Shown here: piece by piece, positions 5,604 through 59,993 of the stretch | How the letters are laid out: each line of letters starts with the position of its first letter | How positions within the stretch are numbered: position 1 is the stretch's first letter | Assembly (NCBI GenBank): GCA_000961695.1 | Contig: LADW01000041.1 | Location: 1 to 64,000 of the forward strand | DNA from: Hyphomonadaceae bacterium BRH_c29 | GTDB lineage: Bacteria > Pseudomonadota > Alphaproteobacteria > Caulobacterales > Hyphomonadaceae | Direction of reading: 5' to 3' | DNA: 64,000 nt | The notes under the pieces: model-generated | The model's input: only the letters and a program-made list of their open reading frames with translations | Told to the model about the DNA's origin: nothing | Database searches by the model: none | Position numbers and translations under genes: made by a program

Positions 5604-6887
5604 TTGGGGTTCAAGACAATTGCGGCACGCTTCGGCGTGCTCATGACGCTGTGCGTGGCATCGGCTGCGCCCGCCTTCGCCGATACGGGTGACTCAGCCT
5701 GGATTCTGACCGCCACGGCGCTGGTCCTGTTCATGACGCTGCCGGGGCTCGCCCTCTTTTATGGCGGCCTTGTGCAGGCGAAAAACCTCTTGTCCGTGTT
5801 CATGCATTGCATGGCGATTGCCGCGCTGATGAGCCTTGTCTGGCTGGCTTGCGGCTATTCCATCGCTTTCGGGCCGGGAACCAGCGGCGTGATCGGCGGC
5901 TTCGCGAAATCCTTCGGCGCCGGGATGACCGGCGCGCCGCTCGCCGGCCAGTCCATTCCCGAGCCGCTGTTCCTGATGTTCCAGATGACGTTCGCCATCA
6001 TTACCCCGGCCCTGATCGTCGGGGCCTTTGCGGAGCGGGTGAATTTCGGCGCCATGCTGATCTTCTGCGCCGCCTGGCTGGTGCTCTGCTACGCGCCGGT
6101 CGCGCATTGGGTCTGGGGCGGCGGCTGGCTGGCGCAAATGGGCGTAGTCGATTTTGCCGGCGGCATCGTGGTGCACACGACGGCTGGCGTCTCGGCGCTG
6201 GCCTTTGCGCTCATCCTCGGCAAGCGGGCGCACTTCCCGCGCGACATGCGCCCACCGCACAGTCCCGGCTTTGTCATGCTCGGCGCCGCCATGCTCTGGG
6301 TCGGCTGGTTCGGCTTCAATGCAGGCTCCGCCCTCGGCGCCAACGCGGATGCGGCCCGCGCCATGCTGGTGACGCACACGTCCGCCGCCACCGCCGCGCT
6401 GGTCTGGATGGGCATCGAATGGGCGAGTTTCGGCAAGCCCACGCTGGTCGGTGTCGCGACAGGCATGGTCGCGGGCCTCGCGACGATCACACCCGCCGCC
6501 GGCTCCGTCGGCCCTGTCGGCGCGCTGATCATCGGCACGGCCAGCGCCTTCATCTGTTATGGCGCGGTCGGCCTGATCCGCCAGCGTCTGCAGATCGATG
6601 ACAGCCTGGACGTGTTCGCCGTGCATGGCGTGGGCGGCATTCTGGGCAGCCTGATGCTGCCCTTCCTTGCCGCGCTCGGGCCCCTCGCCCCCGGTTTGCA
6701 GAAACCGATAATGGCGCAATTCGGCGTGCAGTTACTCGGCGTGCTTGTGGTTGGCGTCCTGTCTGCCGTCGTGACGGCTGGCCTGCTCTACGCCATCCGC
6801 CTCGTCATGCCGCTTCGCGTGTCTCCGGAAGACGAGGAAGCGGGCCTCGATTCGGCGACGCATGGGGAAAGCGCCTATCACCAATAG
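5604..6887 (+). CDS. amt: Ammonium transporter
   Basis: A 427-residue inner-membrane Amt/Mep/Rh channel that conducts ammonium/ammonia. An N-terminal signal-like segment (to about residue 27) precedes DSAWILTATALVLFMTLPGLALFYGG, a hallmark of the family, and eleven hydrophobic helices follow. GGIVVHTTAGVSALAFAL (pore His region) and VHGVGGILGSL (second pore His) are both present, so the twin-histidine pore is intact. The start is TTG at 5604 with AGGGAG six bases before it. No glnK/glnB gene, the usual partner of amtB, lies next to it. An 18-bp palindrome sits immediately upstream. Confidence 0.93.
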   Translation: MGFKTIAARFGVLMTLCVASAAPAFADTGDSAWILTATALVLFMTLPGLALFYGGLVQAKNLLSVFMHCMAIAALMSLVWLACGYSIAFGPGTSGVIGGFAKSFGAGMTGAPLAGQSIPEPLFLMFQMTFAIITPALIVGAFAERVNFGAMLIFCAAWLVLCYAPVAHWVWGGGWLAQMGVVDFAGGIVVHTTAGVSALAFALILGKRAHFPRDMRPPHSPGFVMLGAAMLWVGWFGFNAGSALGANADAARAMLVTHTSAATAALVWMGIEWASFGKPTLVGVATGMVAGLATITPAAGSVGPVGALIIGTASAFICYGAVGLIRQRLQIDDSLDVFAVHGVGGILGSLMLPFLAALGPLAPGLQKPIMAQFGVQLLGVLVVGVLSAVVTAGLLYAIRLVMPLRVSPEDEEAGLDSATHGESAYHQ

Positions 6888-6944: not shown

Positions 6945-7721
6945 ATGGAAGCTGCGTCACCCCCCCGCGAGATTGCGCCTGGCCTTTCCGGACTGAAAGG
7001 CATCGACCACGGCTTTTTTGGCCGCGCGGGCGGTGTCTCCACCGGACTCTATGCCAGCCTGAATGCCGGGCGCGGCTCGGACGACGATCCCGCCGCCGTC
7101 ATCCAGAACCGCGAGCGGATCCGTCAGGCACTCGGCGCAGACGCCCTGCTCTCCTGCCACCAGATCCACTCCGCTGAGGTCGTGCACGTGACCGAGGCCT
7201 GGAGCGACGAGCGCCCGCAAGCCGACGCGATGGTGACCGATGTGGCCGGGCTCGGCCTCTGCATCCTGACGGCAGACTGCACGCCGGTGCTCTTCGCTGA
7301 CGCCGAAGCCGGCGTGATCGGCGCGGCGCATGCCGGATGGAAAGGCGCGCTCGGCGGCGTACTGGAGGCAACGATTGCCTCAATGACGGAACTTGGCGCA
7401 AAACCTGGTCGCATCCGCGCCGCCATCGGGCCAACCATTGCGCAGGCGAGCTATGAAGTCGGGCCGGAATTCCGGGACACGTTCCTCGAAGCCTCCCCCG
7501 CCAGCGAACATCTGTTCAAACCCGGACGGTCAGACCGCTTCCATTTCGACCTGCCCGGATATTGCCGCGCCAGCCTCGCCGCCATGGACATCGGCCATGT
7601 CTCCGATCTCGGGCTCGACACATGCGCGCTGGAAGACGGCTATTTCTCCAATCGCCGGCGCAATCATCGCGGCGAACCGGACTATGGCCGAAATGCCTCA
7701 GTCATCGTGCTGCGCCCGTAA
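6945..7721 (+). CDS. pgeF: Peptidoglycan editing factor PgeF / multicopper polyphenol oxidase (YfiH family)
   Basis: A 258-residue protein of the YfiH/DUF152 family. Family knowledge: E. coli PgeF hydrolyses misincorporated amino acids (such as L-Ser) from UDP-MurNAc precursors, and homologues also act as adenosine-type purine nucleoside enzymes. Conserved metal ligands are visible in CHQIHSAEV, TADCTPVLFAD and AAHAGWKG, and GFFGRAGGVSTG is the usual N-terminal motif. The ATG at 6945 is preferred. A TTG at 6909 would add twelve residues; neither has a clear ribosome site. It lies 90 bases upstream of prs on the same strand. Confidence 0.85.
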   Translation: MEAASPPREIAPGLSGLKGIDHGFFGRAGGVSTGLYASLNAGRGSDDDPAAVIQNRERIRQALGADALLSCHQIHSAEVVHVTEAWSDERPQADAMVTDVAGLGLCILTADCTPVLFADAEAGVIGAAHAGWKGALGGVLEATIASMTELGAKPGRIRAAIGPTIAQASYEVGPEFRDTFLEASPASEHLFKPGRSDRFHFDLPGYCRASLAAMDIGHVSDLGLDTCALEDGYFSNRRRNHRGEPDYGRNASVIVLRP

Positions 7722-7811
7722 AAATTTGCATTGAGTGTGAGAGTCCGGTTGCGACTCGGGCCCGCCTGTTACAAAAGCTTCGCCATCAGGGGCAACAGGG
7801 TCAAAGCCGAC

Positions 7812-8750
7812 ATGAAACTTCTCGCTTGCAACGCAAACCGCCCGCTCGCTGAAGCCATTGCCGACTATCTCGACATGCGACTGACCCGATCAGAGGTCAA
7901 ATCCTTCGCGGACCAGGAAATCTTCGTCCGCATCGATGAGAACGTCCGCGGCGAGGATGTCTTCGTTATCCAGTCGACCTCCTTCCCGGCCAACGACAAT
8001 CTGATGCAGCTGCTGATCATGATGGACGCGCTGCGCCGCGCCTCGGCCCGCCGCATCACCGCCGTGATCCCCTATTTCGGTTATGCCCGCCAGGACCGCA
8101 AAACCGACGGCCGCACGCCGATCTCGGCCAAGCTCGTCGCCAACCTCATCTCCACCGCGGGCGCCGACCGCGTGCTGACCGTGGACCTGCACGCCGGCCA
8201 GATTCAGGGCTTCTTCGACATCCCGACCGACAATCTCTTCGGCAGCCCGGTCATGGTGGACGACATCAAGGAACGCTTCGGCAAGGACAAGATCGTGGTC
8301 GTCTCGCCAGATGTCGGCGGTGTGGTGCGCGCCCGTTCGCTCGCCAAGCGGCTCGACGATGCAGATCTCGCCATCGTCGACAAGCGCCGTCCGGAAGCCG
8401 GCAAGTCGGAAGTGATGAACATTATCGGCGATGTCTCCGGCAAGCGCTGCATCATGCTGGACGACATGTGCGATTCCGGTGGCACGCTGGCGAACGCCGC
8501 TGCGGCGCTGAAAGAAGCCGGCGCCAAGTCCGTCTCCGCCTATGTCAGCCACGGCGTTCTGTCGGGCAAAGCCGTTGAGCGGATCGAGAAATCGGTTCTG
8601 GACGAACTGGTCATGACCGACACGATTGCCCCGTCCGAGGCCGCGAAGAAGTCCAAATCCATCCGCATCCTGCCGATCGCCCCTCTCCTCGGCGAAGCCA
8701 TCCGCCGCATCGCCAACGAGGAAAGCGTCTCGAAACTCTTCGACCGCTAG
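7812..8750 (+). CDS. prs: Ribose-phosphate pyrophosphokinase
   Basis: PRPP synthetase transfers pyrophosphate from ATP to ribose 5-phosphate, feeding purine, pyrimidine, histidine and NAD synthesis. The start [15 protein letters not shown] gives 312 residues, the standard class I length. Motifs: [11 protein letters not shown] (ATP site), [15 protein letters not shown] (divalent-metal and PRPP signature) and the PRPP-binding loop [12 protein letters not shown]. The frame stays open upstream to 7731, but that extension has no family similarity. It lies downstream of pgeF and convergent with the gene at 8759, eight bases away. Confidence 0.95.
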
Positions 8751-8758
8751 GGCTGGAC

Positions 8759-9658
8759 CTAATTCCCCATTGACGGGGTAACCTTCCCGACACTGAGCGC
8801 ATGACTGAACATCGGGTCACCCCCGGTGCAATAATAGACCTCATCTTCCGCCACGAATTCCGGCGCGCTCGGCGTCAATTTGCGCATGCCATACATGCCC
8901 TCAGTTGACTGACTCATGCCGTAGCCACCCCTGTGAAACAGGTAGACCGACGCAGCCGGCATGAATTGCGCCAGCACATAGCCGGCAGGGGCCGTCCAGA
9001 AAGGCGTCTTGTTTCCGGCTTCGTCGAACCAGCCGCTTTCCGTGATCGACAGACGCGTGTGCATGTTGCCAGCATAGAGCAAGATCAGGTCACAACCGAT
9101 TGCTTCGCACGCCGCTTTGGAGTGCAGGGCCAGGTCAATATCCCGCTGCCCCAACGTCCGGTCGACCATGTCTGGCAAGTCGAGTGCAGCGGCCTGCTCT
9201 GCCTCCTCAACCGTCCGTTCACGCCGCTTATCTGCCGCGATGACGTGAATATCTGCCCCCGCCAGTTTCAGCGCCCTCAGCTGCAACAGCATGTTCCGCA
9301 TGGCATCTGACGTTCGTCCGTCGCCCGTATGGTGCATGGCGAACGCATCCATGGCCGCGACTTCATCCGGCGCAGCCATGACGGAATCGAGATCGTCCTG
9401 CCAGTCCGGCGGATATTCCAGTGCCACGACAATACGACGCCCGTTGCCGGCAGCCTGCGCCACTGCATTGCCGAACGCTTCGGGCATTTCTGTCGTACCG
9501 TGATATTCCCCGAACAAGATAGCTGAGTAAGCGGCAGCAAGGTCTTCGAAGGCGACGGCCTGCCCTTCCTCGCAAGCGGCAGGCTTGAACGTTGCCTCCT
9601 CCGCCTGCGCACCTGCCGCCAAAAAGGCCGCGACTGTAATTGCCTGAAATACCCTCAC
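8759..9658 (-). CDS. Exported protein, probable ChaN/Tiki-like (haem-binding uptake or EreA-like) fold
   Basis: A 299-residue protein with a clear Sec signal peptide (MRVFQAITVAAFLAAGAQA). The motif ILFGEYHGTTEMPEAF near residues 48-63 (GE-x-H followed by a helix) and a later LLYAGNMHTRL segment resemble the paired GE-x-H and G-x-x-H motifs of the ChaN/Tiki/TraB/erythromycin-esterase superfamily, which bind metal or haem. Four cysteines are present, some likely in disulfides. I cannot tell whether it is an enzyme or a haem binder. It appears to be transcribed alone. Confidence 0.5.
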   Translation of the reverse strand: MRVFQAITVAAFLAAGAQAEEATFKPAACEEGQAVAFEDLAAAYSAILFGEYHGTTEMPEAFGNAVAQAAGNGRRIVVALEYPPDWQDDLDSVMAAPDEVAAMDAFAMHHTGDGRTSDAMRNMLLQLRALKLAGADIHVIAADKRRERTVEEAEQAAALDLPDMVDRTLGQRDIDLALHSKAACEAIGCDLILLYAGNMHTRLSITESGWFDEAGNKTPFWTAPAGYVLAQFMPAASVYLFHRGGYGMSQSTEGMYGMRKLTPSAPEFVAEDEVYYCTGGDPMFSHALSVGKVTPSMGN

Positions 9659-9738
9659 GCCCCGATTGCCTCCGCCTTCTATTTATAAGGGTATGTTACT
9701 GTATAACCACGCCTGCGTCCAGCTTTTATTCTACGCCA

Positions 9739-10038
9739 TCACCGGCAGGTCAGACGGATCGACACATCTTCCTTATACGGTGTATCCAGAGGGTTGACGA
9801 AGGTGACCCACCAGACGCCGGGCTCGGCCGCGCGGCTTTCGGTGACGGTGAACGCACCACCGGTTGTCTGACGCGCCGAGACGCCGAGCTGCCCGGGCGG
9901 ACAATCCACCCGCAGCGTCGCCTCCCCGCCCGCCTGAAGCCGCAAGCTCTGCTCGCGTACGACAGTGTGCCTGGTGCCAGAAGGAATGGCGGCGCAGCCG
10001 GTCAGCAGCGCCGCCAGAAACAGGGCTGATACCCTCAT
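9739..10038 (-). CDS. Small hypothetical lipoprotein
   Basis: A 99-residue protein starting MRVSALFLAALLTGCAA, a signal peptide with a textbook lipobox (LTGC). The mature part of about 84 residues is probably beta-rich (SLRLQAGGEATLRVDCPP), with two further cysteines that may pair. No family is recognised. Its first four bases overlap the end of the BlaR1-M23 gene (10035-10038), so it is the last gene of the blaI-blaR1 operon and may work with that sensor at the envelope. Confidence 0.6.
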   Translation of the reverse strand: MRVSALFLAALLTGCAAIPSGTRHTVVREQSLRLQAGGEATLRVDCPPGQLGVSARQTTGGAFTVTESRAAEPGVWWVTFVNPLDTPYKEDVSIRLTCR

Positions 10039-49715: not shown

Positions 49716-50312
49716 CTACTCCTCGATGAGTGTTTGTGCGGGGTCCAGATGGGCAAGGCAGGCTGCCAGCAGGCCCTCGAAATCAAATGTGACGCCGCCG
49801 GTCTTCCACGAAACCTGCACGCGGGGGTCGTCCGAAATGCTCGCCGGAACAAGCGTGTAGCGCCCGGCCATGCCCGGATGGCGGGCAATAATCGGCTCCA
49901 GCTTTTCCAGCATGTGTGGACGCGCGCGGATCTCGACGGCAGGGGCCGATGCAGGCACAAGGCGGGTCAGGTGCTGGCCGATCTCTTCAGCCAGGAATTT
50001 ACGTGACAGTTCCGGAAACAGGCGGGCGGCCAGCGACTGGGTGACCTGCATCGCCTGATTGCGGGATTCAGATTCAATCCGCGTCAGGGCCGACGACAAT
50101 TGGCCGATCAGACCGTCCACCTCGGCCAGCGACGGACCGAGGTCCACCTCGGGCGACGCGACGTCTTCCTCGACAATTTCCTCAACAGGCGCAGCAACCG
50201 TGGGGCGTGCGGCAGCGGCCTTCATTTGACCCAGCATGCGCCGCAGCTGTTCTGCCGGATGCTGATCATCCTTGTCGAACCGCGGCAGGCTTGAAAGCAG
50301 GGCGTTACTCAT
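49716..50312 (-). CDS. fliH: FliH-type regulator of the export ATPase
   Basis: A 198-residue protein: Ala/Pro/Glu-rich N-terminal half, then a FliH/HrpE-like C-terminal domain (QSLAARLFPELSRKFLAEEIGQHL, VEIRARPHMLEKLEPIIARHP). FliH binds FliI and restrains its ATPase; the Caulobacter equivalent is called FlbE. It overlaps the fliF stop by eight bases and precedes fliN by four. Confidence 0.75.
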   Translation of the reverse strand: MSNALLSSLPRFDKDDQHPAEQLRRMLGQMKAAAARPTVAAPVEEIVEEDVASPEVDLGPSLAEVDGLIGQLSSALTRIESESRNQAMQVTQSLAARLFPELSRKFLAEEIGQHLTRLVPASAPAVEIRARPHMLEKLEPIIARHPGMAGRYTLVPASISDDPRVQVSWKTGGVTFDFEGLLAACLAHLDPAQTLIEE

Positions 50313-51819
50313 TGACGGCCACCTTACGGTCTTCGTTCAGCCATTCCTGAAGGATCGCTGCGGCGTCGTCCTGTCGTTCTGTGGCGTAATCTTTCAGCGA
50401 AAGGAACGGATCAGCGGCAATCGCGTCGAGCCCGCCAGCGGCGTCGGTATCATCCATTCCCAGCGCATTCTGCTTAGGCTGTTTCAGCAGCGGACGCACC
50501 ACACCGAGAGCCAGCACGATCACGACAAGACCCAGCACAAGGATCTGAATGCCGGACCACATGTAACGTTCCATCAGCTGGTCCATCATGCTCGGCGCGG
50601 CGACAAGGTCATCGACCGGCGCGACCTGAAAAGGCATGAACTCCACCGTCAGATTGTCCCCGCGGCCAAGGTCCAGCCCGATCGCGGACATGACGAGCTG
50701 GCGGAAGTCAGCCACCATCTGGTCGTTCACTGTCGCTGCATCCGGTGCTGCAGCATCCAGTCCCAGCACCTGTTCGTTGAGAAGCACGGCCACCGAGATG
50801 CGCTCAACCTGACCCGGCATGCGCTCGGTTTCGGTCCGCGTCTCGTTGATCTCGTAGGAGACAGATTCAGATGAATTCTTGGTCGAGCTATTGCTCTGGT
50901 TGCCTGTCGGGCTGGCGCCTTGTGGCAGGTTGCTCGACACGGTCAGCGCACCGGATGTGCCGCCGCGGGTCTCAGCGACATCGCCGGTCGTGCGGCTGCG
51001 GACGACGCGGGAATCCGGATCATAGGTGATGGCTGAGGTACGCTGGCGCTCGCGGCTGACATCGACGGAGACCGACACGCGAGCGTTGCCCGGTCCGACG
51101 CGCGCCTCGATCAGGCGCATGATCTTTTGTTCCAGCTGGGCTTCCTGGGACTCGGCCTGCACGCCCGGCTGTTCGGACGAGTTCATACCAGGTCCGGCCA
51201 GAATGCCCTTGTTGAGATCGATCACGGCGACCTCTTCCGGGCTCAGGCCGGATACGGCGAGCGCGACGAGGTACTGGATACCCTGCGCCTGATTGGCCGT
51301 CAGATCGTGAGCTGAAGACAAGGTCACCGATGCGGTCTGCGCCGGGTCAGAGCGGGAAAATCCCGAACGCAGGCTTGCACCGATGTGCACGCGCGCTGAC
51401 TGGACCCCCGGAACTGACAAGATGGTGCGTGTCAGCTCCCCCTCTTTCGCGCGCCAATAGGCGGCGTTGTACATCTCGGAAGTGACCGAGAAGCCGTTTA
51501 CGTTGTCGAGCAGTTCATAGCCCTGCACCGATTGTTTCGGCAAACCATCACGGGCCAGCGCGAAGCGGACCGAATCACGATCCTTCTGCGGCACGAGGAT
51601 CGCATCGCCCTTGATCTCGTATTTCGTCGCATTCTTGTCGAGTGCGTCGATGATCTCGCCGGTTACGGCGGGATCGAGCCCCGAATACAGCAATGCCATA
51701 GGCTGTTTCATGGCCCCCTGGACCATGAAGGTCATGACGGCGACCACCCCCAGCACGGAGAGCGCCAGCATGATCTGCCGGCTCACTGGTAAGGCTTTGA
51801 GGTTGTCGAGAAAATTCAT
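50305..51819 (-). CDS. fliF: Flagellar MS-ring protein FliF
   Basis: A 504-residue ring protein with two membrane helices (about residues 15-37 and 428-448). RBM domains: LYSGLDPAVTGEIIDALDKN, VNGFSVTSEMYNAAYWRAKEGELTRTILSVPGVQSARVHI (in register), and a C-terminal FliG-binding tail (ATERQDDAAAILQEWLNEDR). It heads the fliF-fliH-fliN-fliP-fliG operon and is divergent from fliL. Confidence 0.96.
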   Translation of the reverse strand: MNFLDNLKALPVSRQIMLALSVLGVVAVMTFMVQGAMKQPMALLYSGLDPAVTGEIIDALDKNATKYEIKGDAILVPQKDRDSVRFALARDGLPKQSVQGYELLDNVNGFSVTSEMYNAAYWRAKEGELTRTILSVPGVQSARVHIGASLRSGFSRSDPAQTASVTLSSAHDLTANQAQGIQYLVALAVSGLSPEEVAVIDLNKGILAGPGMNSSEQPGVQAESQEAQLEQKIMRLIEARVGPGNARVSVSVDVSRERQRTSAITYDPDSRVVRSRTTGDVAETRGGTSGALTVSSNLPQGASPTGNQSNSSTKNSSESVSYEINETRTETERMPGQVERISVAVLLNEQVLGLDAAAPDAATVNDQMVADFRQLVMSAIGLDLGRGDNLTVEFMPFQVAPVDDLVAAPSMMDQLMERYMWSGIQILVLGLVVIVLALGVVRPLLKQPKQNALGMDDTDAAGGLDAIAADPFLSLKDYATERQDDAAAILQEWLNEDRKVAVNE

Positions 51820-51880
51820 GAATCGGCACTTCCCGTATCTGGGCGGATCGGTGGAATGGTTAATATCTGGCCGAAAATTA

Positions 51881-51895
51881 TTAACGGTTCCTTTA
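51881..51895 (+). promoter_or_regulatory. CtrA-like site between fliF and fliL
   Basis: TTAA-CGGTTCC-TTTA matches TTAA-n7-TTAA with one mismatch. A further TTAA lies about 20 bases upstream (GGTTAATATC). It is 50 bases before fliL and 60 before fliF on the other strand, suitable for a divergent early flagellar promoter. Confidence 0.42.
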
Positions 51896-51946
51896 CCCGA
51901 AGACCTAAATAAGAAGCCTTGGGAGTCTTGGGATACTGGGAACCGG

Positions 51947-52474
51947 ATGGCGAAGAAAAGTGCGGCGAAAGCTGGCGAACAAGCCGTGGAGGGCGGTGTT
52001 CAGACTGGCGCGAAAAAGTCGGGCGGCGGGATCGTCGGCCTGGCCATTCTTGCTGTGGGCGCCATGACCAGTTCCTTCGCCACCGTCTACGTTCTGGCGT
52101 CTGATCCACCGACCGGACCAACCGCCTGCCCGGTTGCTGAAACAGGTCCGGTTGCTGACCCCATCGCGCAAAAGGATCAGTCCTACGTCGAACTGCGCGA
52201 CATCCTGATCACGATCGGCAGTGAGCCCGCGACCCGTTACCTGAAGATGAAACTCGCCGTGGTAACCGACGCAGAAGGCACCAGTATGGTTCAAAGCGCC
52301 GAACCGGTGCTGATCGACGCGTTTACCAACTACCTCCGGTCGGTCGAACTCAGTGATTTCGAAAACCCCGATTTCTACGCTCATATGCGCGAGCAACTGG
52401 GCCGACGGGCCGAGCTGGTACTGGGCGGGGGTGTCTCCGACGGCGTCCTGATCACTGAATTCCTGTTGAGGTGA
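51947..52474 (+). CDS. fliL: Flagellar basal body-associated protein FliL
   Basis: A 175-residue inner-membrane protein: a Lys/Ala/Gly-rich N-terminal cytoplasmic part, one membrane helix (about 29-52) and a periplasmic FliL domain (YVELRDILITIGSEPATRYLKMKLAVV, VLIDAFTNYLRSVELSDFENPDFYAHMREQLGRR in register). It begins MAKKSAAKAG at 51947; an upstream frame in phase is antisense to fliF. It overlaps the next gene by four bases. A second FliL-like gene is at 34756. Confidence 0.9.
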   Translation: MAKKSAAKAGEQAVEGGVQTGAKKSGGGIVGLAILAVGAMTSSFATVYVLASDPPTGPTACPVAETGPVADPIAQKDQSYVELRDILITIGSEPATRYLKMKLAVVTDAEGTSMVQSAEPVLIDAFTNYLRSVELSDFENPDFYAHMREQLGRRAELVLGGGVSDGVLITEFLLR

Positions 52475-52944
52475 GCGCCATGCCGATTCAAGCCACCGAC
52501 ATCGCCATCATCCTCGTTTCGTTCGCTGCATGCGTTTACTGCTTCGTGCTGAACCGCCGCCTGAAGGCGCTGCAGAACACACGGGACGGTCTCGGCGCAA
52601 CCATCATGGCCATGAACAAATCCGTCGCCGCCATGTCCAGCTCGACAAAAGACACTCGCTCGCATGTCGGCGAAATGGCTGCGCGCCTCTCCACACAGCT
52701 GGAAGACGCCAAACAGACCTGCATCCGCCTGGAACAGCTCAAAGCCTCGCTGGAAGCCACCCAGAAGGACGCCGTCGACCAGGTCACAGCCTCGCAAGCT
52801 GAACTCAGCACGATGATGCGCATCATCCTCGATCAGTCCAAGACCCGCATCATGGACATGAACCGTGTCATGCAAGAGATGCGCGAAATGACCGAAGCCG
52901 CCGACGAAGACTATCGCCCCCTTGCCGAAACAACGGGGCGCTGA
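52471..52944 (+). CDS. Membrane coiled-coil protein after fliL (DUF6468-like)
   Basis: A 157-residue protein: one N-terminal membrane helix (about residues 8-26), then a long cytoplasmic or periplasmic coiled coil (about 30-130) rich in Met, Ser, Gln and Lys. It starts with GTG at 52471, overlapping the fliL stop by four bases; an ATG three codons later (52480) is possible. In alphaproteobacteria a similar gene (DUF6468, from memory) follows fliL. Its function is unknown, but the coupling implies a basal-body or stator role. Confidence 0.6.
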   Translation: MSAMPIQATDIAIILVSFAACVYCFVLNRRLKALQNTRDGLGATIMAMNKSVAAMSSSTKDTRSHVGEMAARLSTQLEDAKQTCIRLEQLKASLEATQKDAVDQVTASQAELSTMMRIILDQSKTRIMDMNRVMQEMREMTEAADEDYRPLAETTGR

Positions 52945-52973
52945 CCCGCTCAACTCTGAACTGGTTACCCGCC

Positions 52974-53591
52974 ATGAAGTCCCTCAAAAACAGCCGCTCC
53001 TACGTCCTGCTCACCCTCGGCTTCCTGTTCACGCTGGGCGCCGCAGTGCGGTTCCTGCCGAGCAATCTGGCCATTGCCGAATCTACCCATGCCCCGGACC
53101 ACGCCGACAAGCTCGCCTCTGCTGTGGCTGCCACCGCGGCCCTGCCCGATCCACGTCAGATCGATCAGGTCTGCTTCAACGCGGAGACAGCCGCCCTCCT
53201 GGCAGACGACCAGAAGAAGCTGAAAGAACAGCAAGCGGCCCTGCAGGAGCTGGAACTCGAGCTTCTCTCCCGCCAGCAGGAACTCGACCGCCGTGCGTCA
53301 GACCTTGAGGCCGTGCAGCAGACGCTCCAGGAGCGCTGGGGCCAGCTACAGGACGCCTCGAACGACGACATGGAACACCTCGCCCGCATGTACGGGACGA
53401 TGAAACCGGACCAGGCGGCCTCAATTTTCAATCAGATGGATTCTGATTTTGCTGCTGGCTTCATGCGCCTGATGCGCTCTGAACAAGCGGGCATGATCCT
53501 CGCAGGCATGGAGACACGGAAAGCCTATGCCGTCAGTCTCAAGCTGGCCGCGCTGAACGAAGACGTCCGGAACGCATCGAGCGACAACTAG
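52974..53591 (+). CDS. motE: MotE-type periplasmic motility protein
   Basis: A 205-residue protein with an N-terminal membrane or signal segment (about 10-35), a coiled-coil region (about 75-125: KKLKEQQAALQELELELLSRQQEL) and a C-terminal MgtE-N-like helical domain (MYGTMKPDQAASIFNQMDSDFAAGFMRLMRSEQAGMILAGM in register). Rhizobial MotE has this layout and is described as a chaperone for the motility protein MotC. It lies 29 bases after the coiled-coil gene, in the fliL operon. Confidence 0.78.
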   Translation: MKSLKNSRSYVLLTLGFLFTLGAAVRFLPSNLAIAESTHAPDHADKLASAVAATAALPDPRQIDQVCFNAETAALLADDQKKLKEQQAALQELELELLSRQQELDRRASDLEAVQQTLQERWGQLQDASNDDMEHLARMYGTMKPDQAASIFNQMDSDFAAGFMRLMRSEQAGMILAGMETRKAYAVSLKLAALNEDVRNASSDN

Positions 53592-53661: not shown

Positions 53662-53695
53662 AAACCCAAAAGGGTGCCGGTCGGGAGGTTGTGTG

Positions 53696-54076
53696 GTGAG
53701 GAAATTCTGCGGCTTGCTTTTGCTGGCATCCATAAGCGCCTGTTCGCAGCCCCCAGCCGAATCCGGACCGGCAATTGTGGTGCCTGATGCCGCCCACGTC
53801 TCCCTCGCCGAAACTCTGGTTCCGGCTGATCCCACTCTTGCCGCCATTTATGACCGGTCCTGCCGGGCGTGCCATGCGCTGGACGGGCTTGGGGCGCCGC
53901 TGAGCGGTCACACCGCCGCCTGGACCCCACGGCTGGAGGAACGCGGCCTGGAGGGCGTCCTCGCTTCAGTCCACACCGGACGCGGCGCCATGCCGCCCAT
54001 GGGCTACTGCCCTGACTGCACGGATGAGGATTTCCGCGCCCTCATTGAATTCATGTCCACGGAGGGCCAGCCATGA
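53696..54076 (+). CDS. Lipoprotein cytochrome c (class I, mono-haem)
   Basis: A protein of 126 residues from GTG at 53696 (GGGAGG seven bases upstream; a GTG at 53693 is the alternative). The signal peptide ends in a lipobox ISAC, so it is probably lipid-anchored. One haem motif CRACH sits near residue 56-60, with HALDGLGAPL after it and an axial Met candidate in GAMPPMG. Two more cysteines (YCPDC) near residue 105 could form a disulfide, as in some c5-type cytochromes. It overlaps the FAD oxidase gene by four bases and may accept its electrons. Confidence 0.82.
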   Translation: MRKFCGLLLLASISACSQPPAESGPAIVVPDAAHVSLAETLVPADPTLAAIYDRSCRACHALDGLGAPLSGHTAAWTPRLEERGLEGVLASVHTGRGAMPPMGYCPDCTDEDFRALIEFMSTEGQP

Positions 54077-55497
54077 GCACGACCCGGCGCGCGATCCTGC
54101 TCGGCTCTGCCGGGCTCGCCACAGCTGTCGCAATTCCCGGCGTCCAGTACGCCGCCTGGAGCATGAAGGATTTCACGCGCGACGGGTACAATCCCGGCCT
54201 GCCGCCTGCCCCGGACGGAGAAGTCGCCTGGTCGAACTGGTCTGGCATCCAGCAATCCACGCCGAAGCAGATTGCCGTGCCAGCCACCGAAGACGAACTC
54301 GCCACCGCCATTACCGGCGCGCAGCGCGTCCGACCGGTCGGCAGTGGACATTCCTTCACAGGCCTCGTCCCCTCAGAGCATCTGATCGTGGATGCCAGCC
54401 GCTTTTCCGGACTGGTGTCGTCAGACGCCGCCACGGGCATCGTCACGATTGGCGCGGGCACGCGCATTCGGCAGGCGGCTCGCGAGCTGGACGCCGCTGG
54501 CCTCGCTCTGCAGAATCTGCCGGACGTCGATGTGCAGACACTGGCGGGTTCTTTCTCCACATCAACGCACGGCACGGGCCGGACGCTACAGCCGCTGCAC
54601 GCGCATGTCGAAGGCTTCCGGCTCGTGACCGCGTCCGGAGACGTGCGTGATGTCACCGCCGCCTCCGACCCTGCTTTGTTCTCCGCTGGCCGCGTGTCGC
54701 TCGGCGCGCTCGGCGTGATCACCCAGTACACGCTGAAATGCGTGCCCGCCTACAATCTGAAGCGCCGCGTCTGGGTCGACACGCTGGACAATATCATGGA
54801 CCAGGCGATGGCGCTTTCAGAGCAGCATCGCAATTTCGAGTTCTACTATTTTCCCTTCACCGGAATGGCCGCCGGCATCTCTCATGACATGTTCGAAGGC
54901 GAAGTCTCCGGCCGCGTTTCGGATGAGGACGAAGACACGCTGTCGGGCCTGAAAGACCTGCGCGACATCTTCGGATGGGCGCCCTGGCTGCGGCGACGCA
55001 TTGCTGCCGGCAGCCTGCCACATGGCGTCGTGGAAGAAAGCTCCGATGCCTATTGGAAACTGCTCTCCACCGCCCGGCCGACAAAGTTCAACGAGATGGA
55101 ATACCATATCCCGCTCGAGAACGGCCTGACTTGCCTGAGGGCAATCATCGGTGCCCTCGAATCCCGCAAGGACACGTTCTTCCCGATGGAAGTCCGCATC
55201 ACGGCGCCAGATGATGCCTGGCTCAGCCCCTTCAATGACGGGCCGCGCATGTCGATCGCGACGCATGCCGCCGTGGACGAGCCTTACGACTATTTCTTCT
55301 CGGTTCTGGAACCGATCCATCGCGCCCATGGCGGCCGGCCTCATTGGGGAAAGCTGCATTCGCTCGGCAAGGACGAGCTGATGGGCCTGTATCCAGATTA
55401 TCAGACCTTCCTGGACCTTCGCGCCACACTCGACCCGGACGGCAAGTTCTTAAATTCGCATCTGGCGCACTTGTTCGGAGAAGATTTCGATGCCTGA
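54073..55497 (+). CDS. Tat-exported FAD-linked oxidase (aldonolactone oxidase type)
   Basis: A 474-residue VAO-family flavoprotein. The start MSTTRRAILLGSAGLA is a twin-arginine signal, so it is exported folded with FAD. The FAD domain contains RPVGSGHSFTGL with His 93 in the place where aldonolactone oxidases bind FAD covalently, and VDVQTLAGSFSTSTHGTG. The C-terminal half matches the D-arabinono-1,4-lactone oxidase domain. The substrate may be a sugar alcohol or aldonolactone, but is not known. It overlaps the cytochrome gene by four bases and the PLP-enzyme gene by eight. Confidence 0.82.
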   Translation: MSTTRRAILLGSAGLATAVAIPGVQYAAWSMKDFTRDGYNPGLPPAPDGEVAWSNWSGIQQSTPKQIAVPATEDELATAITGAQRVRPVGSGHSFTGLVPSEHLIVDASRFSGLVSSDAATGIVTIGAGTRIRQAARELDAAGLALQNLPDVDVQTLAGSFSTSTHGTGRTLQPLHAHVEGFRLVTASGDVRDVTAASDPALFSAGRVSLGALGVITQYTLKCVPAYNLKRRVWVDTLDNIMDQAMALSEQHRNFEFYYFPFTGMAAGISHDMFEGEVSGRVSDEDEDTLSGLKDLRDIFGWAPWLRRRIAAGSLPHGVVEESSDAYWKLLSTARPTKFNEMEYHIPLENGLTCLRAIIGALESRKDTFFPMEVRITAPDDAWLSPFNDGPRMSIATHAAVDEPYDYFFSVLEPIHRAHGGRPHWGKLHSLGKDELMGLYPDYQTFLDLRATLDPDGKFLNSHLAHLFGEDFDA

Positions 55498-56773
55498 ATT
55501 TTCGCGTCGCACCCTGTTTCTGGGTGGCGCTGCCGTCATCGCTGGAGGAGCCGTCCTGATGAACAAACCGCATGACCACAGCGGGCCGCGAGATCCATAT
55601 TTTCTCAGCATCCAGGCCGCCCTGATCGGTGCTGGTATCGCCTGGCCGACGCTCGTGATCGACCGCGCACGCCTGTCGGAAAACGTCCGGACCCTGAAAA
55701 CGCACCTGCCATCCGGCATGGGCTATCGCATCGTCGCCAAGTCCCTGCCCTCGATTGACCTGATCTCGCATATCCGGAACCTGTCCGGCACCGACCGGCT
55801 GATGACGTTCAACCAGCCCATGCTGTCCAAACTCTCGGTCGACATGCCGGAAGCGAGCCAGCTCGTCGGCAAGCCGCTGCCTGTACACGCTGCGAAACAC
55901 TATTTCGAAACCCTGCCGGCAAATACCAGCGCGGCGGCGGACAACATTCAATGGTTGATCGATACGCCTGCGAGGCTGCAGCAATATTCCGCGCTTGCTG
56001 CAGACCTCGGCCGGACGCTGAAACTCGTTCTGGAACTGGATGTCGGCCTGCACCGGGGTGGTTTCGAACCGGGTCCTGCGCTCGGCGCCACGATCGAAGC
56101 GATCGAAGCCGACCCCAATCTCGAATTCACCGGCTTCATGGGGTACGAGCCGCACATCCCATCCCTGCCGACCACCATGGGCTGGCGCGACAAGGCTTTG
56201 AAAGGCGCATGGAACACTTATGAGACCGCTTTGGCACAGGCCAACGATCTGATCGGAAGCGATAGAATGCCCGGTCTCACTCGCAATGCCGCTGGCAGCC
56301 CGACCTATCGCTACTACCAGTCCACCGACATCGCCAACGAAGTCTCCGCGGGCTCCTGCCTCGTCAAGCCGACGCATTTCGACACCGAATTGCTGGAACC
56401 GCACCAGCCAGCCAGCTTCATTGCGACCCCGGTGATCAAGTCTCTCGACAAAACCCGCCTGCCCGGCCTCGAATTTGCGAGCGGCCCGTCTGCGGCGTGG
56501 AACCCAAATTCGAAAAAGACGATCTTCATCCATGGCGGCCACTGGCTGGCCAAACCGGTCGACCCGCCGGGCCTTGAATACAACAAGACTTTCGGACGCT
56601 CCTCGAACCAGGAAATGATGAATGCCGGGCCGGAGCTTTCCATTCAGCCAGACGAGTTTGTGTTCCTGCGGCCGGAGCAGAGCGAAGCCGTCTTCCTGCA
56701 GTTCGGAGACATCGCGGTCTATGAGGATGGCGCGATCGTTGACACCTGGCCGGTCTTCCCGATTTCCGCATAA
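55490..56773 (+). CDS. Tat-exported PLP enzyme, alanine-racemase-like fold (DSD1/D-threonine-aldolase-like)
   Basis: A 427-residue fold-type III PLP enzyme. The start MPEFSRRTLFLGGAAVIAGG is a twin-arginine signal, so the enzyme works outside the cytoplasm. The N-terminal barrel carries the PLP lysine at about 84 in YRIVAKSLPS, and GLHRGGF and GFMGYEPH match D-serine dehydratase-like and D-threonine-aldolase-like proteins. The C-terminal metal-site region (HGGHWLAKPV) is present. It overlaps the oxidase gene by eight bases. A role on D- or beta-hydroxy amino acids, perhaps feeding the oxidase, is inferred; the true substrate is unknown. Confidence 0.75.
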   Translation: MPEFSRRTLFLGGAAVIAGGAVLMNKPHDHSGPRDPYFLSIQAALIGAGIAWPTLVIDRARLSENVRTLKTHLPSGMGYRIVAKSLPSIDLISHIRNLSGTDRLMTFNQPMLSKLSVDMPEASQLVGKPLPVHAAKHYFETLPANTSAAADNIQWLIDTPARLQQYSALAADLGRTLKLVLELDVGLHRGGFEPGPALGATIEAIEADPNLEFTGFMGYEPHIPSLPTTMGWRDKALKGAWNTYETALAQANDLIGSDRMPGLTRNAAGSPTYRYYQSTDIANEVSAGSCLVKPTHFDTELLEPHQPASFIATPVIKSLDKTRLPGLEFASGPSAAWNPNSKKTIFIHGGHWLAKPVDPPGLEYNKTFGRSSNQEMMNAGPELSIQPDEFVFLRPEQSEAVFLQFGDIAVYEDGAIVDTWPVFPISA

Positions 56774-56978: not shown

Positions 56979-57503
56979 GTGAACCCGTGGAGACTGCCCA
57001 TCATTTCTGCAATCGCCTTCAGCCTGGCCACAACACCGGCCATGGCAGAGCGTGAAGGCCGCGACGACATGACGGTGCTCGGCTATGTCGAGGATGTCCA
57101 CGTCGGCAAGTTAGGCCTTGAAATGAAAGGCAAACTTGATACCGGCGCCGATTCCTCATCGGTCTATGCCCGCGACGTGAAAGTGTACAAGAAGTCCGGC
57201 AAGGACGACTGGGTGACATTTCGCCTGCGCGGCAAGAATGGCCGCACAGTCCGCTACGATCAGGACGTGCGCCGCTTTGCGCTCATCAAGCTTAAAACCG
57301 GCGGCACGATCCGCCGTCCTGTAATTCACCTGCCCGTTTGTCTCGGAGGCGTACGCGGCCTGGCGGAAGTCAATCTTGCCGACCGTGAGGACTTTGAATA
57401 CGACATCCTGATCGGTCGCGAATTCCTCGCGTCCCGCATCCTGGTCGATTCTGCCTCGACCTTCATTGCAGACGACGAATGTAACGTACCTGAGCGTGAC
57501 TAG
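56979..57503 (+). CDS. Exported retropepsin-like protease (RimB / PF05618 type)
   Basis: A 174-residue protein with a signal peptide (first about 23 residues, ending TPAMA). It has the aspartic-protease motif LDTGADSSSV (Asp 54, TGAD) and ILIGREFL, as in the so-called ATP-dependent zinc protease family, now seen as retropepsin-like. The Pseudomonas RimB protein of this family removes glutamates added by RimK. The start is GTG at 56979 with AAAGGAGA upstream. Unlike RimB it appears exported. It is the first gene of a three-gene operon with the 7TM and RimK-like genes. Confidence 0.8.
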   Translation: MNPWRLPIISAIAFSLATTPAMAEREGRDDMTVLGYVEDVHVGKLGLEMKGKLDTGADSSSVYARDVKVYKKSGKDDWVTFRLRGKNGRTVRYDQDVRRFALIKLKTGGTIRRPVIHLPVCLGGVRGLAEVNLADREDFEYDILIGREFLASRILVDSASTFIADDECNVPERD

Positions 57504-59031
57504 TACCTTTCACACCCGCCTCCTGGCACTTGTGCTGACGGTGATCGCGCTGACGATCTTCGGCATCAAGGTATTCCAGTACAAGTACCCGCTCACGCCG
57601 GGGGCCCAGACCACAACCTGGGACTTTGAAGTCTATCTCGACTTTGACACGGCCAATCAACCGGTACGCATCGAAACCTTTATTCCGTCAAACAGCGACA
57701 CCCGCAGCGTGTCGCAGGAACAATACTATAATGGCGCCTTCGGCCTGCGCCTCGAGTCCGATGACGAAGATGGCCGCAAGGCGATCTGGACCTACCGTTA
57801 TCCGGATGACCGCAAAGTGCTGCGCTATCGCGCGCGCCTCGAAGGCGAGACCCAGCGCTCCCCCCTGCCTGCCGAGATGCACCGTCCGGCAGACCGCGAA
57901 CCACCAGGCTCGCTCAACGATCTTGAACGCCAGGCCTTTATCGTCTGGTCATCGGACATGCGCCGGCGCTCAGCTGACAATGAATCCCTCGCGGAACTGA
58001 TCCTGCAGGAGATCTTCGTCGAGAAGGACGCTGATGAGATCGAGGCGTTGCTGCCGGCCCTGCCCCCGCCGCTCGACCGGCTGACACTTGCGGCTGAAGC
58101 CCTGCAGAGCCAGGGAATCCGCGCGCGCGTCGCGAATGGCGTGTATCTGGATGAGGCCCGCCGGCGTACCGAAGTGCAGCATTGGCTCGAATACCATGTC
58201 GAGGGGCGCGACAAGCGCTACTTCATCGGGCCGGACCCGAAAGAGTTCTTCACCATCTGGTATGGCACGGAAGAAATGATCCGCGCAGACGGCGTGTTCG
58301 ACTTCGAACCGCAAGTCTCGATCCAACCCATAGATTCCTCGACCTCAGACGTCGTGCGCAAAGCTGCCCGCGAGGCACGCAATCCGGTCGAGCTGTTCAG
58401 TTTCGACCGCCTGCCGGTGACCACGCAACTGGTCTACCAGGTGCTGATCACCATTCCTGCAGGCATCGTTCTGCTGGTCTTCATGCGCCAATTTATCGGG
58501 ATCGAGACGCTCGGCACGTTCATGCCCATTCTGATCGGCATCGCGTTCCGCGAGACGGCCCTGCTGAATGGCATTATCCTGTTCACCATGCTGGTCGCGC
58601 TCGGCCTTGCCATGCGATTCTATCTCGAGAAGCTCCGATTACTGCTGGTGCCCCGGCTCGCGGTGGTGCTGATCTTCATCGTGATCTGCATGGCGGTCAT
58701 CGCGCAGGTCTTCAATGGCGCAAACATGCGCATGGGCTTGTCCATCTCGCTGTTCCCGATGGTGATCTTGACCATGACGATCGAACGCATGTCGATCATG
58801 TGGGAAGAGTATTCCGCCGAAGACGCCATCAAGGCGGGCGCCGGGTCCCTGCTGATCGCATCCCTCTCGTATCTGGTGATGACGAACCAGCATGTTGAAT
58901 ACCTGCTGTTCAACTTCCCTGAACTGTTGCTGATCCTGATGGCAGCCTGCCTGCTGATGGGCAAATATACCGGCCTGCGCGTCAGCGAGATCATCCGTTT
59001 CCGTGAACTGGCGAAGCAGGCGGAAAAATGA
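57496..59031 (+). CDS. Inactive transglutaminase fused to seven-helix membrane domain
   Basis: A 511-residue protein from GTG at 57496 (521 from TTG at 57466; neither has a clear ribosome site). One N-terminal helix is followed by a periplasmic domain to about residue 300 with a transglutaminase-like fold but no cysteine, so it cannot be catalytic. Seven hydrophobic helices follow (about 315-500). This architecture is known from RimK-like ligase operons and was proposed to handle peptides across the membrane. It overlaps the previous stop by eight bases and the next start by four. Confidence 0.8.
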   Translation: MTSTFHTRLLALVLTVIALTIFGIKVFQYKYPLTPGAQTTTWDFEVYLDFDTANQPVRIETFIPSNSDTRSVSQEQYYNGAFGLRLESDDEDGRKAIWTYRYPDDRKVLRYRARLEGETQRSPLPAEMHRPADREPPGSLNDLERQAFIVWSSDMRRRSADNESLAELILQEIFVEKDADEIEALLPALPPPLDRLTLAAEALQSQGIRARVANGVYLDEARRRTEVQHWLEYHVEGRDKRYFIGPDPKEFFTIWYGTEEMIRADGVFDFEPQVSIQPIDSSTSDVVRKAAREARNPVELFSFDRLPVTTQLVYQVLITIPAGIVLLVFMRQFIGIETLGTFMPILIGIAFRETALLNGIILFTMLVALGLAMRFYLEKLRLLLVPRLAVVLIFIVICMAVIAQVFNGANMRMGLSISLFPMVILTMTIERMSIMWEEYSAEDAIKAGAGSLLIASLSYLVMTNQHVEYLLFNFPELLLILMAACLLMGKYTGLRVSEIIRFRELAKQAEK

Positions 59032-59993
59032 TCCGCACCTGGATTGCCCTGCGCAAAGCCGGACTGCTTGGCATCAATGAGCGGAATCTCCGTCTCGTAA
59101 ATGACCTCAATCCGCGTCGCCTCATGCGGCTTGTGAATGACAAGACCGAGACCAAACGCCTCGCCATCGAAGCCGGCATCGCGACGCCGGAACTCTATGG
59201 CCTGATCCGCAACCCGCTGGACATGCGCAACCTAGAAAAGCTTCTGGACAAGCCGGATGGCTGCGTGATCAAGCCGGCAAATGGCTCGCAGGGCAACGGT
59301 ATCCAGGTCATTCTAGGGCCGATGCGCGGCGGCTGGCGCCGGTCCAACGGCCAGCGCGCCCTACTTGAAGACCTCCGCTTCCACGTTAACAACATCCTCT
59401 CAGGCATGTACTCCCTGTCCGGACAACCGGATGTGGCCATGATCGAATACCGGGTGAAATTCGACGAGGTGTTTGACCCGATCAGCTTCGGCGGCGTGCC
59501 GGACATCCGTATCATCGTGCTGCGCGGCATTCCCTTTGTCGCCATGGTGCGCCTGCCGACAGCAGAATCCGACGGCAAGGCCAACCTGCACAAGGGCGGC
59601 GTCGGTGTTGGGCTGGACCTCGTGACCGGCCGCACCATGCACGGTATGCAAAATGGCAAGACAACGGAAATCCATCCGGACACAGCCAACCCCCTGAGCA
59701 ACCTCAAAGTCCCTCATTGGGACGAGATGCTTCTGATGGCCGCCAAAGCCTATGAAGTGACAGGGCTCGGCTATCTTGGTGCGGACATCGTGCTCGACAA
59801 GGGCAAGGGGCCGCTGCTGCTCGAACTGAATGCCCGCCCGGGCCTTGCGATCCAGGTCGCAAACCGCATGGGCATCCTTCCTCTGGTCAATGCCACCCTC
59901 AAGGCAGATACGGAAGGGATGAGCGCTGAAGAGCGCGTGGAGATGGCGAAAAAGCTCTATCGCAGCTTCGCCCCCGAACGCATCTTCGCCTAA
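59028..59993 (+). CDS. RimK-like ATP-grasp alpha-L-glutamate ligase
   Basis: A 321-residue ATP-grasp enzyme expected to form an amide bond between an amino acid and a peptide or small molecule, with ATP. Motifs: CVIKPANGSQGNGIQVI (ATP-grasp N-loop), DIRIIVLRGIPFVAMVRLP, a metal/phosphate region (GADIVLDKGKGPLLLELNARPGL in register) with the Asn-Ala-Arg signature. It is cytoplasmic. Its ATG overlaps the 7TM gene by four bases, and its stop overlaps the Anbu gene on the other strand by four. Substrate unknown. Confidence 0.85.
   Translation: MIRTWIALRKAGLLGINERNLRLVNDLNPRRLMRLVNDKTETKRLAIEAGIATPELYGLIRNPLDMRNLEKLLDKPDGCVIKPANGSQGNGIQVILGPMRGGWRRSNGQRALLEDLRFHVNNILSGMYSLSGQPDVAMIEYRVKFDEVFDPISFGGVPDIRIIVLRGIPFVAMVRLPTAESDGKANLHKGGVGVGLDLVTGRTMHGMQNGKTTEIHPDTANPLSNLKVPHWDEMLLMAAKAYEVTGLGYLGADIVLDKGKGPLLLELNARPGLAIQVANRMGILPLVNATLKADTEGMSAEERVEMAKKLYRSFAPERIFA

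Follow-up and report, generated by a model that had tools for sequence, protein, structure and literature searches.

An exported cytochrome, flavoenzyme and pyridoxal-phosphate enzyme trio in a Hyphomonadaceae bacterium corresponds to Pseudomonas sphBCD and may act on sphingoid bases

Organisation of the locus

A 64,000-nucleotide stretch of the genome of Hyphomonadaceae bacterium BRH_c29 (contig LADW01000041.1, positions 1 to 64,000; hereafter the window) contains three genes on the same strand that encode, in order, a cytochrome c, a flavin adenine dinucleotide (FAD) enzyme and a pyridoxal phosphate (PLP) enzyme, which we refer to as SphB, SphC and SphD after their counterparts in Pseudomonas aeruginosa (Table 1). 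We analysed computationally the operon structure, export signals, active-site residues, fold and conservation of this trio, and its correspondence with P. aeruginosa sphBCD. The coordinates confirm the overlaps of 4 and then 8 bases that were recorded in a preliminary description of the locus, and the export signals which that description placed on all three products were found again: the gene 1 product carries a predicted lipobox, ISA-C, whereas those of genes 2 and 3 carry putative twin-arginine translocation (Tat) signals, with STTRR and FSRRTLFLGG, respectively, each followed by a hydrophobic stretch. Signal peptides were called by eye and with simple scripts rather than with SignalP. Gene 1 matches PF13442 (4e-15).

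Table 1. Coordinates of the features described in the text.
Feature	Record	Position	Strand	Remarks
SphB-like monohaem cytochrome c lipoprotein (gene 1)	window	53693..54076	+	GTG start at 53693 or 53696; 53.8% identity to P. aeruginosa SphB over 80 aa
SphB haem site CRACH	window	53861-53875	+	single CxxCH of gene 1
SphC-like Tat-signal FAD enzyme (gene 2)	window	54073..55497	+	TIGR01679 / VAO fold family; 38% identity to P. aeruginosa SphC over 425 aa
SphC twin-arginine signal	window	54073..54150	+	STTRRAILLGSAGLATAVAIPG, judged by eye
SphC His93 of GSGHSF, predicted covalent FAD attachment	window	54349..54351	+	aligned with the GSGHSF histidine of xylitol (alditol) oxidase 2vfr; 49/49
SphC Pro150 and invariant Asp151	window	54520..54525	+	Pro150 aligned with the oxygen-gatekeeper Ala113 of GalDH and its A113G variant
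SphC Glu373-x-Arg375, predicted catalytic	window	55189..55197	+	49/49; Arg taken as counterpart of GalDH Arg388
SphC Lys427 of HWGK, predicted catalytic	window	55351..55353	+	49/49; taken as counterpart of GalDH Lys456
SphD-like Tat-signal fold-III PLP enzyme (gene 3)	window	55490..56773	+	42% identity to P. aeruginosa SphD over 401 aa
SphD twin-arginine signal	window	55490..55564	+	FSRRTLFLGGAAVIAGGAVLM, judged by eye
SphD Lys84, predicted PLP Schiff-base lysine	window	55739..55741	+	51/51; aligned with the first HAKTHKS lysine of D-threonine-aldolase-like proteins
SphD E-Q-S-E in place of the H-C-D motif of PF14031-type enzymes	window	56675..56686	+	from alignment
Upstream extension of P. 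aeruginosa SphD, candidate Tat signal	L274	6929-6997		
Downstream CxxCH lipoprotein, Hyphomonas	L088 (= L138)	6280-6765		
Downstream CxxCH lipoprotein, Hyphomonas	L089 (= L157)	6295-6783		
DUF819 gene, Pseudovibrio	L178	3709-4887		between SphC and SphD genes; PF05684
DUF819 gene, Mangrovicoccus	L185	2799-3983		between SphC and SphD genes; PF05684
DUF819 gene, R. pomeroyi	L272	14609-15754		order TetR-cytochrome-FAD-PLP-DUF819
DUF819 gene, Yoonia	L273	10517-11683		cytochrome-FAD-DUF819; PLP gene nearby on opposite strand

Correspondence with the Pseudomonas sph locus

A protein search of plasmid records retrieved a P. aeruginosa record in which genes for a cytochrome c5, a D-arabinono-1,4-lactone oxidase and a DSD1-family protein are followed by a 'transporter' gene and sphR. 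This is the sph locus, and its first three genes are sphB-sphC-sphD (PA5328-PA5326), in the same order as the trio in the window. Among the papers listed by earlier literature searches there was no matching system, and a search on the M. tuberculosis lactone dehydrogenase locus, considered as a possible FAD/PLP neighbour pair, gave no further lead. The two sets of genes also have in common their active-site residues and a Tat signal on SphC (published for P. aeruginosa), but their products are 38-54% identical and the gatekeeper residue of SphC, discussed below, is Pro in the window and Ala in P. aeruginosa. The reading frame of P. aeruginosa SphD runs upstream of its annotated start, and an in-frame GTG 69 nt before this start would add the sequence V-NRRKFMFAGLGAGALLAGAAAW, while an alternative in-frame ATG at 51 nt would exclude the arginines. 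Because the extension from the GTG resembles a Tat signal, P. aeruginosa SphD is probably exported as well and its annotated start apparently lies too late. In the available sections of the Pseudomonas sph papers, a periplasmic location is mentioned for SphB and SphC only.

Active sites of SphC and SphD

SphC scores 459.3 bits against TIGR01679, above the curated cut-off of 292.25, and with its catalytic residues retained it fits the aldonolactone-oxidase type proposed in the preliminary description. It also matches PF01565 and PF04030, the latter being matched once in its genome. His93, Asp151, Glu373, Arg375, His398 and Lys427 are invariant in all 49 aligned SphC homologues, and the histidine of 2vfr with which His93 aligns binds FAD. 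Arg375 and Lys427 were equated on the basis of shared motifs with GalDH Arg388 and Lys456, which are reported to touch the substrate oxygen (PMC11099136). SphC has the sequence family, the Arg/Lys catalytic pair and the FAD site in common with GalDH, GULO, ALO and AldO, but differs from them in its Tat export, its PLP partner and its combination of His93 with Pro150, whereas the oxygen-using aldonolactone oxidases are described as pairing a Gly gatekeeper with the covalent-flavin histidine (PMC11099136). A further difference is Asp151, which is invariant across the 101 SphC homologues retained for the gatekeeper comparison below and corresponds to Ser in AldO and GalDH; an acid at this position would suit an amine, making Asp151 a possible amine site.

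SphD matches PF01168 (Ala_racemase_N; 1.2e-15), a family with five matches in the genome, four of them above the cut-off. Among the matches listed for its structure model (mean pLDDT 93.9), VIA Z scores are 31.7-34.9 for D-threonine aldolases, BhcC and hydroxyaspartate/D-serine dehydratases (34.0-34.9 for the D-threonine and hydroxyaspartate aldolases) and 24.1-26.9 for alanine racemases. The fold-III PLP enzyme recognised earlier from the letters alone thus has, as its nearest solved structures, enzymes that act on D-hydroxy-amino acids. Lys84, His188-Arg189-Gly190-Gly191, Asn266, Gly269-Ser270, Trp352, Ser371, Gln397 and Glu399 are invariant in 51 of 51 SphD homologues. His222 was set aside as a catalytic candidate; it is present throughout the same alignment, yet the P. 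aeruginosa enzyme has Phe at this position.

The H-x-C/D residues of PF14031-type enzymes are metal ligands. SphD has no match to PF14031 at E 0.01, and at the three positions of the H-C-D motif its 51 homologues have E, Q, H, T, S, N or R, then Gln in every case, then Ser in 50 and Thr in one, so that x-Q-S-E is the form of the motif in this family. While D-threonine aldolase, BhcC and D-serine dehydratase have the fold and PLP lysine in common with SphD, the latter differs in the replaced metal motif, in being only 15-18% identical and in its predicted export, and it scores 33.1 bits against the BhcC family NF045642, for which the cut-off is 690. As judged from the alignment and the model, SphD is like the D-threonine-aldolase group in fold and lies outside their metal-dependent group. 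Other PLP enzymes that act outside the cytoplasm are BsrV and PvdN, the latter named periplasmic by NCBIfam. Unlike SphD, PvdN belongs to class V (fold I); BsrV has fold III and acts as a racemase (VIA Z 25.9).

Different PLP partners accompany some relatives of SphC. Four of these (L083, L254, L256 and L258; L numbers denote loci) are unexported TIGR01679-type proteins with a Gly gatekeeper, encoded beside D-threonine-aldolase-like proteins that have the H-C-D motif, and would represent a parallel oxidase-aldolase pair; the Pfam check of the partner covered L083. A D-threonine-aldolase-like protein at L084 was not counted as metal-type, the motif not being visible at its end. At L116 (genome G007, 7016-9803 and upstream), genes for a TonB receptor (by eye), a cytochrome c and a Tat-signal SphC homologue are followed by one for a class-V PLP protein that has a Tat-like N-terminus, is distantly SufS/PvdN-like and replaces SphD; a DAO-family gene lies nearby.

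Conservation of the module

Among 105 genomes of the family to which the window belongs, 59 yielded a gene-3 match and 63 a gene-2 match (E 1e-20), and by hand count gene 2 lies within ~50 nt of gene 3 in 55 of the 59. The four gene-3 genomes that yielded no gene-2 match at E 1e-20 all belong to a single genus, g7; in these (L077-L080) the SphD homologue is encoded beside porin-like and aldehyde-dehydrogenase-like proteins, as judged by eye. In a sample of 398 genomes from the phylum (E 1e-30), gene 3 was present in 23 and gene 2 in 35, and the two are neighbours in 21 of the 23, with gaps of up to ~165 nt; one gene (MFS-like by eye) separates them in G273, and G363 has no gene-2 match. The adjacency of genes 2 and 3 is more than chance.

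We then compared the best 80 of 296 gene-3 relatives, a set in which Hyphomonadaceae are over-represented, and which covers Hyphomonas, Henriciella, Maricaulis, Sphingomonadaceae, Parvibaculaceae, Roseiarcus, Pseudovibrio, Caulobacteraceae, Halieaceae, Hydrocarboniphaga and others. Of these loci, 78 contain gene 2, which lies directly upstream of gene 3 in 76; the two without it are L158, a fragment at a contig end, and L195, with gene 3 alone. A SphB-like cytochrome (phmmer E 1e-3) occurs in 30 of the 80, in each case with an exported SphC. The arrangement SphB-SphC-SphD recurs, with its export signals and active sites, in the window's own genus and in many other lineages, and the module is present in many alpha- and gammaproteobacteria. 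The synteny, PLP lysine and FAD histidine, whose absence from relatives the preliminary description had named as grounds for doubt, are all conserved. Two further loci (L252 and L253), which group with a Caulobacteraceae row on the SphC tree, have the cytochrome and a Tat-signal SphC in the same order as the window and no SphD. In two Hyphomonas species without a SphB-like cytochrome, a different, unrelated CxxCH cytochrome c-like lipoprotein is encoded directly downstream of SphD.

Clustering of flanking open reading frames (ORFs) from 53 regions, including the window, and from the 80 loci revealed no widely shared partner beyond the module. In the window, the genes upstream (50305-53591) look flagellar: their products include a protein that by eye is FliF-like and another whose match to FlbB falls short of the cut-off. 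Downstream (56979-59993), genes in a row encode an RloA-type retropepsin, a membrane protein of the inactive-transglutaminase kind (RloB-like, with a score under the cut-off) and a RimK-related ATP-grasp ligase.

Gatekeeper residue and compartment

Ala113 of GalDH is reported to shield the flavin from oxygen (PMC11099136). To compare the equivalent position we used 102 SphC homologues, retained after removal of near-duplicates at 90%, from which L263 was excluded because it has neither His93 nor the catalytic residues, leaving 101. Three proteins that the script had labelled 'none' (L175, L181 and L267) were reassigned by eye to the exported group, a Tat-like N-terminus being visible. The gatekeeper is Gly in all 37 unexported homologues, whereas the 64 exported ones have Pro (57), Ala (3), Ser (3) or Gly (1, at L194). 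The P. aeruginosa protein has Ala, and a homologue from Eleftheria terrae, outside the set of 101, has Gly. On a quick SphC tree, location changes at least four times and the gatekeeper residue at least three times; three of four independent pairs agree, one has no difference and none is opposite (sign test, p 0.25). Residue and location appear to go together in a way that is striking by count and rests on few independent events. Our initial reading of Pro150 as a closed gate was abandoned and the correlation alone retained.

The gene-3 protein has a Tat signal in 60 of the 80 loci. In 15 loci, neither SphC nor SphD has a signal, and no gene-1-like cytochrome was found there; 14 were assigned by script, and the fifteenth, L184, had been labelled 'exported' on an over-long ORF start and proved unexported on other examination. 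Four loci (L178, L185, L272 and L194) combine an exported SphC with an unexported SphD, that of R. pomeroyi L272 being so called from its annotated start. Three of these four also contain a DUF819 gene, with no DUF819 match at L194, and such a gene is likewise present in Yoonia (Table 1). The literature found for DUF819 (PF05684) assigns it to the CPA/AT transporter clan (PMC8396727) and yielded no substrate. We regard the DUF819 protein as a candidate transporter of the oxidised intermediate. At L270, from another alphaproteobacterial family, an MFS-like protein (by eye), with no NCBIfam match at 1e-10, precedes an unexported pair.

Interpretation

We consider it rather probable that the trio is a sphBCD operon, whose products form a module outside the cytoplasm for oxidising, and thereafter cleaving, sphingoid bases or closely related amino alcohols. 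This is supported by the position of the homologous operon next to sphR in P. aeruginosa (identities of 54, 38 and 42%), by the retention of the GSGHSF histidine, the glutamate and the GalDH-type Arg/Lys pair in 49 of 49 SphC proteins, and by the D-hydroxy-amino-acid aldolases and dehydratases that are the top structural neighbours of SphD. In the scheme that we infer for Hyphomonas, which comprises the substrate, the regiochemistry at C1, the stereochemical match and the SphD reaction, SphC would be exported folded by the Tat system with its FAD covalently bound and would remove a hydride from the C1 alcohol of a sphingoid base, with a second probably taken from the aldehyde hydrate, as in alditol oxidases. 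Electrons would pass from SphC to the membrane-anchored cytochrome SphB and on to the respiratory chain. The product would be a 2-amino-3-hydroxy aldehyde or acid, and SphD would then cleave this beta-hydroxy amino compound. When C1 of a D-erythro sphingoid base (2S,3R) is oxidised, the Cahn-Ingold-Prelog priority at C2 is reversed; by our derivation, the SphC product would therefore be D-configured at the alpha carbon, which suggests a fit with the D-specific fold group to which SphD belongs.

The cytochrome c had been named earlier as the likely electron acceptor of the flavoprotein, and this is supported. In another flavoprotein superfamily with different chemistry, the amine dehydrogenases NicA2 and Pnao also combine Tat export with an operonic cytochrome c, a combination described as marking enzymes that use the cytochrome rather than oxygen, while relatives with neither signal nor cytochrome are oxidases; no PLP partner is mentioned in the available text (PMC12224317). 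Since most tested Tat enzymes of that superfamily without an operonic cytochrome are reported to be oxidases (PMC12224317), copies of the module without a cytochrome may use oxygen.

As regards reaction order, sphB and sphC are reported to be needed in P. aeruginosa for normal growth with sphingosine and for its metabolism, whereas sphD is dispensable under these conditions and the product formed from sphingosine was not identified (DiGianivittorio et al. 2025, PMC11893366). These genetics place oxidation before cleavage, so that the order in the preliminary description, in which the flavoprotein oxidises the product of a prior cleavage, is probably reversed. The two-step idea for sphingosine, oxidation followed by cleavage, has been published (PMC3900636). 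The substrate is likely to be a long-chain amino alcohol (a sphingoid base); free D-Ser, D-Thr or D-Ala are less likely.

We put forward a wider scheme more tentatively, and hold it to be doubtful as a whole: that breakdown of sphingoid bases wholly outside the cytoplasm, by C1 oxidation through SphC, is widespread in proteobacteria. SphD would here be a Tat-exported, metal-independent D-aldolase forming its own subfamily, which cleaves a D-configured beta-hydroxy amino acid. Compartment and electron acceptor would switch together, with the at least four changes on the SphC tree marking moves between cytochrome c outside and oxygen, admitted by a Gly gate, inside, and DUF819 would carry the intermediate across the membrane where SphC is outside and SphD inside.

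Several observations weigh against the assignment to sphingoid bases. No biochemistry was found in the literature for any member of the module, nor anything relevant on SphD beyond the sph papers. The Pseudomonas authors allow that SphB and SphC may act indirectly, and describe orthology outside Pseudomonas as hard to assess; Caulobacter crescentus keeps sphBC without sphD, its sphBC gave no significant complementation, and deletion in such sphBC-only strains had little or no effect, with a change in a very small concentration range only for C. crescentus sphC and no phenotype for sphBC in P. fluorescens WCS365 (PMC11893366). SphC itself, 38% identical to its P. aeruginosa counterpart, belongs to a broad family. 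Neither of two partners from P. aeruginosa was seen here: the window's genome has no PF04734 ceramidase, and no SphR homologue was found at E 1e-8 among the window ORFs, a regulator elsewhere not having been sought. Across the family a ceramidase occurs in 7 of 105 genomes, four of which are without SphD. Serine palmitoyltransferase (SPT) had no match at E 1e-120 in the window's genome, a threshold at which controls from Caulobacter and E. coli were positive and no match reached the family's curated cut-off. By hand count, SphD is present in 7 of 16 SPT-matching family genomes and in 52 of the 89 others, and the module is therefore not tied to making sphingolipids; ceramide synthesis genes have been reported in H. 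neptunium (PMC11324152). In the window's genome, the link to sphingolipids is homology alone. Of its 15 PF00155 matches the seven strongest were scanned, and they include a single alpha-oxoamine synthase, 5-aminolevulinate synthase; a search for PF13557 (SphA-like porin) was negative in the same genome, with a control that was also silent. Within the Hyphomonadaceae loci L037-L066, moreover, a SphB-like cytochrome is present in 11 of 30 and absent from the examined stretch in 19, the upstream flank being 0.6-1.5 kb. Pro150 is no proof of a dehydrogenase, as xylitol oxidase 2vfr has Ala at this position, and Pro is reportedly common among VAO-family oxidases.

It is conceivable, if on balance unlikely, that outside Pseudomonas the substrate of SphC and SphD is a different amino alcohol or beta-hydroxy amino compound; modified amino alcohols from cell walls or algae would be examples. 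Identities of 38-42% leave room for this, SphC relatives occur with different PLP partners (the metal-motif D-threonine-aldolase-like proteins and the exported class-V PLP protein), and the distribution of ceramidase and SPT genes does not follow that of the module; against it, operon order, export signals and SphD motifs are conserved between Hyphomonas and Pseudomonas, and Asp151 and the catalytic set are invariant. An oxidation at C3, with SphD acting on the 3-keto product or serving as a racemase, seems improbable. GalDH, the mechanistically studied relative, does oxidise a secondary alcohol at C2 (PMC11099136), but the nearest solved SphC relative with a named activity is the xylitol oxidase 2vfr. 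This enzyme oxidises terminal alcohols. Alanine racemases are found among the structural neighbours of SphD, although at lower Z scores than the D-threonine aldolase/dehydratase group.

We give equally little weight to a pathway in which SphD cleaves first, in the manner of sphingosine-1-phosphate lyase or D-threonine aldolase, and SphC oxidises the released aldehyde or alcohol. AldO-type enzymes can oxidise aldehydes, and the four g7 genomes retain SphD without SphC. In addition, sphD transposon insertions are reported to cause small survival defects on sphingosine (PMC3900636), so that SphD is not irrelevant. However, the requirement for sphBC in sphingosine metabolism and the dispensability of sphD argue for oxidation first, and SphC is retained without SphD in L252, L253 and C. 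crescentus (PMC11893366).

Significance

Sphingosine is an antimicrobial lipid of mammalian epithelia; plants also release sphingoid bases, and some bacteria make them. The gene cluster for bacterial destruction of sphingosine is known from Pseudomonas. To the known sphBCD kind of operon our comparison adds a predicted Tat signal on SphD, the missing metal motif, the association between location and gatekeeper residue, and the stereochemical argument, suggesting that SphD, too, is exported and differs from ordinary D-threonine aldolases. The named residues, compartment variants and stereochemistry would thus supply testable clues to the chemistry of sphingosine breakdown.

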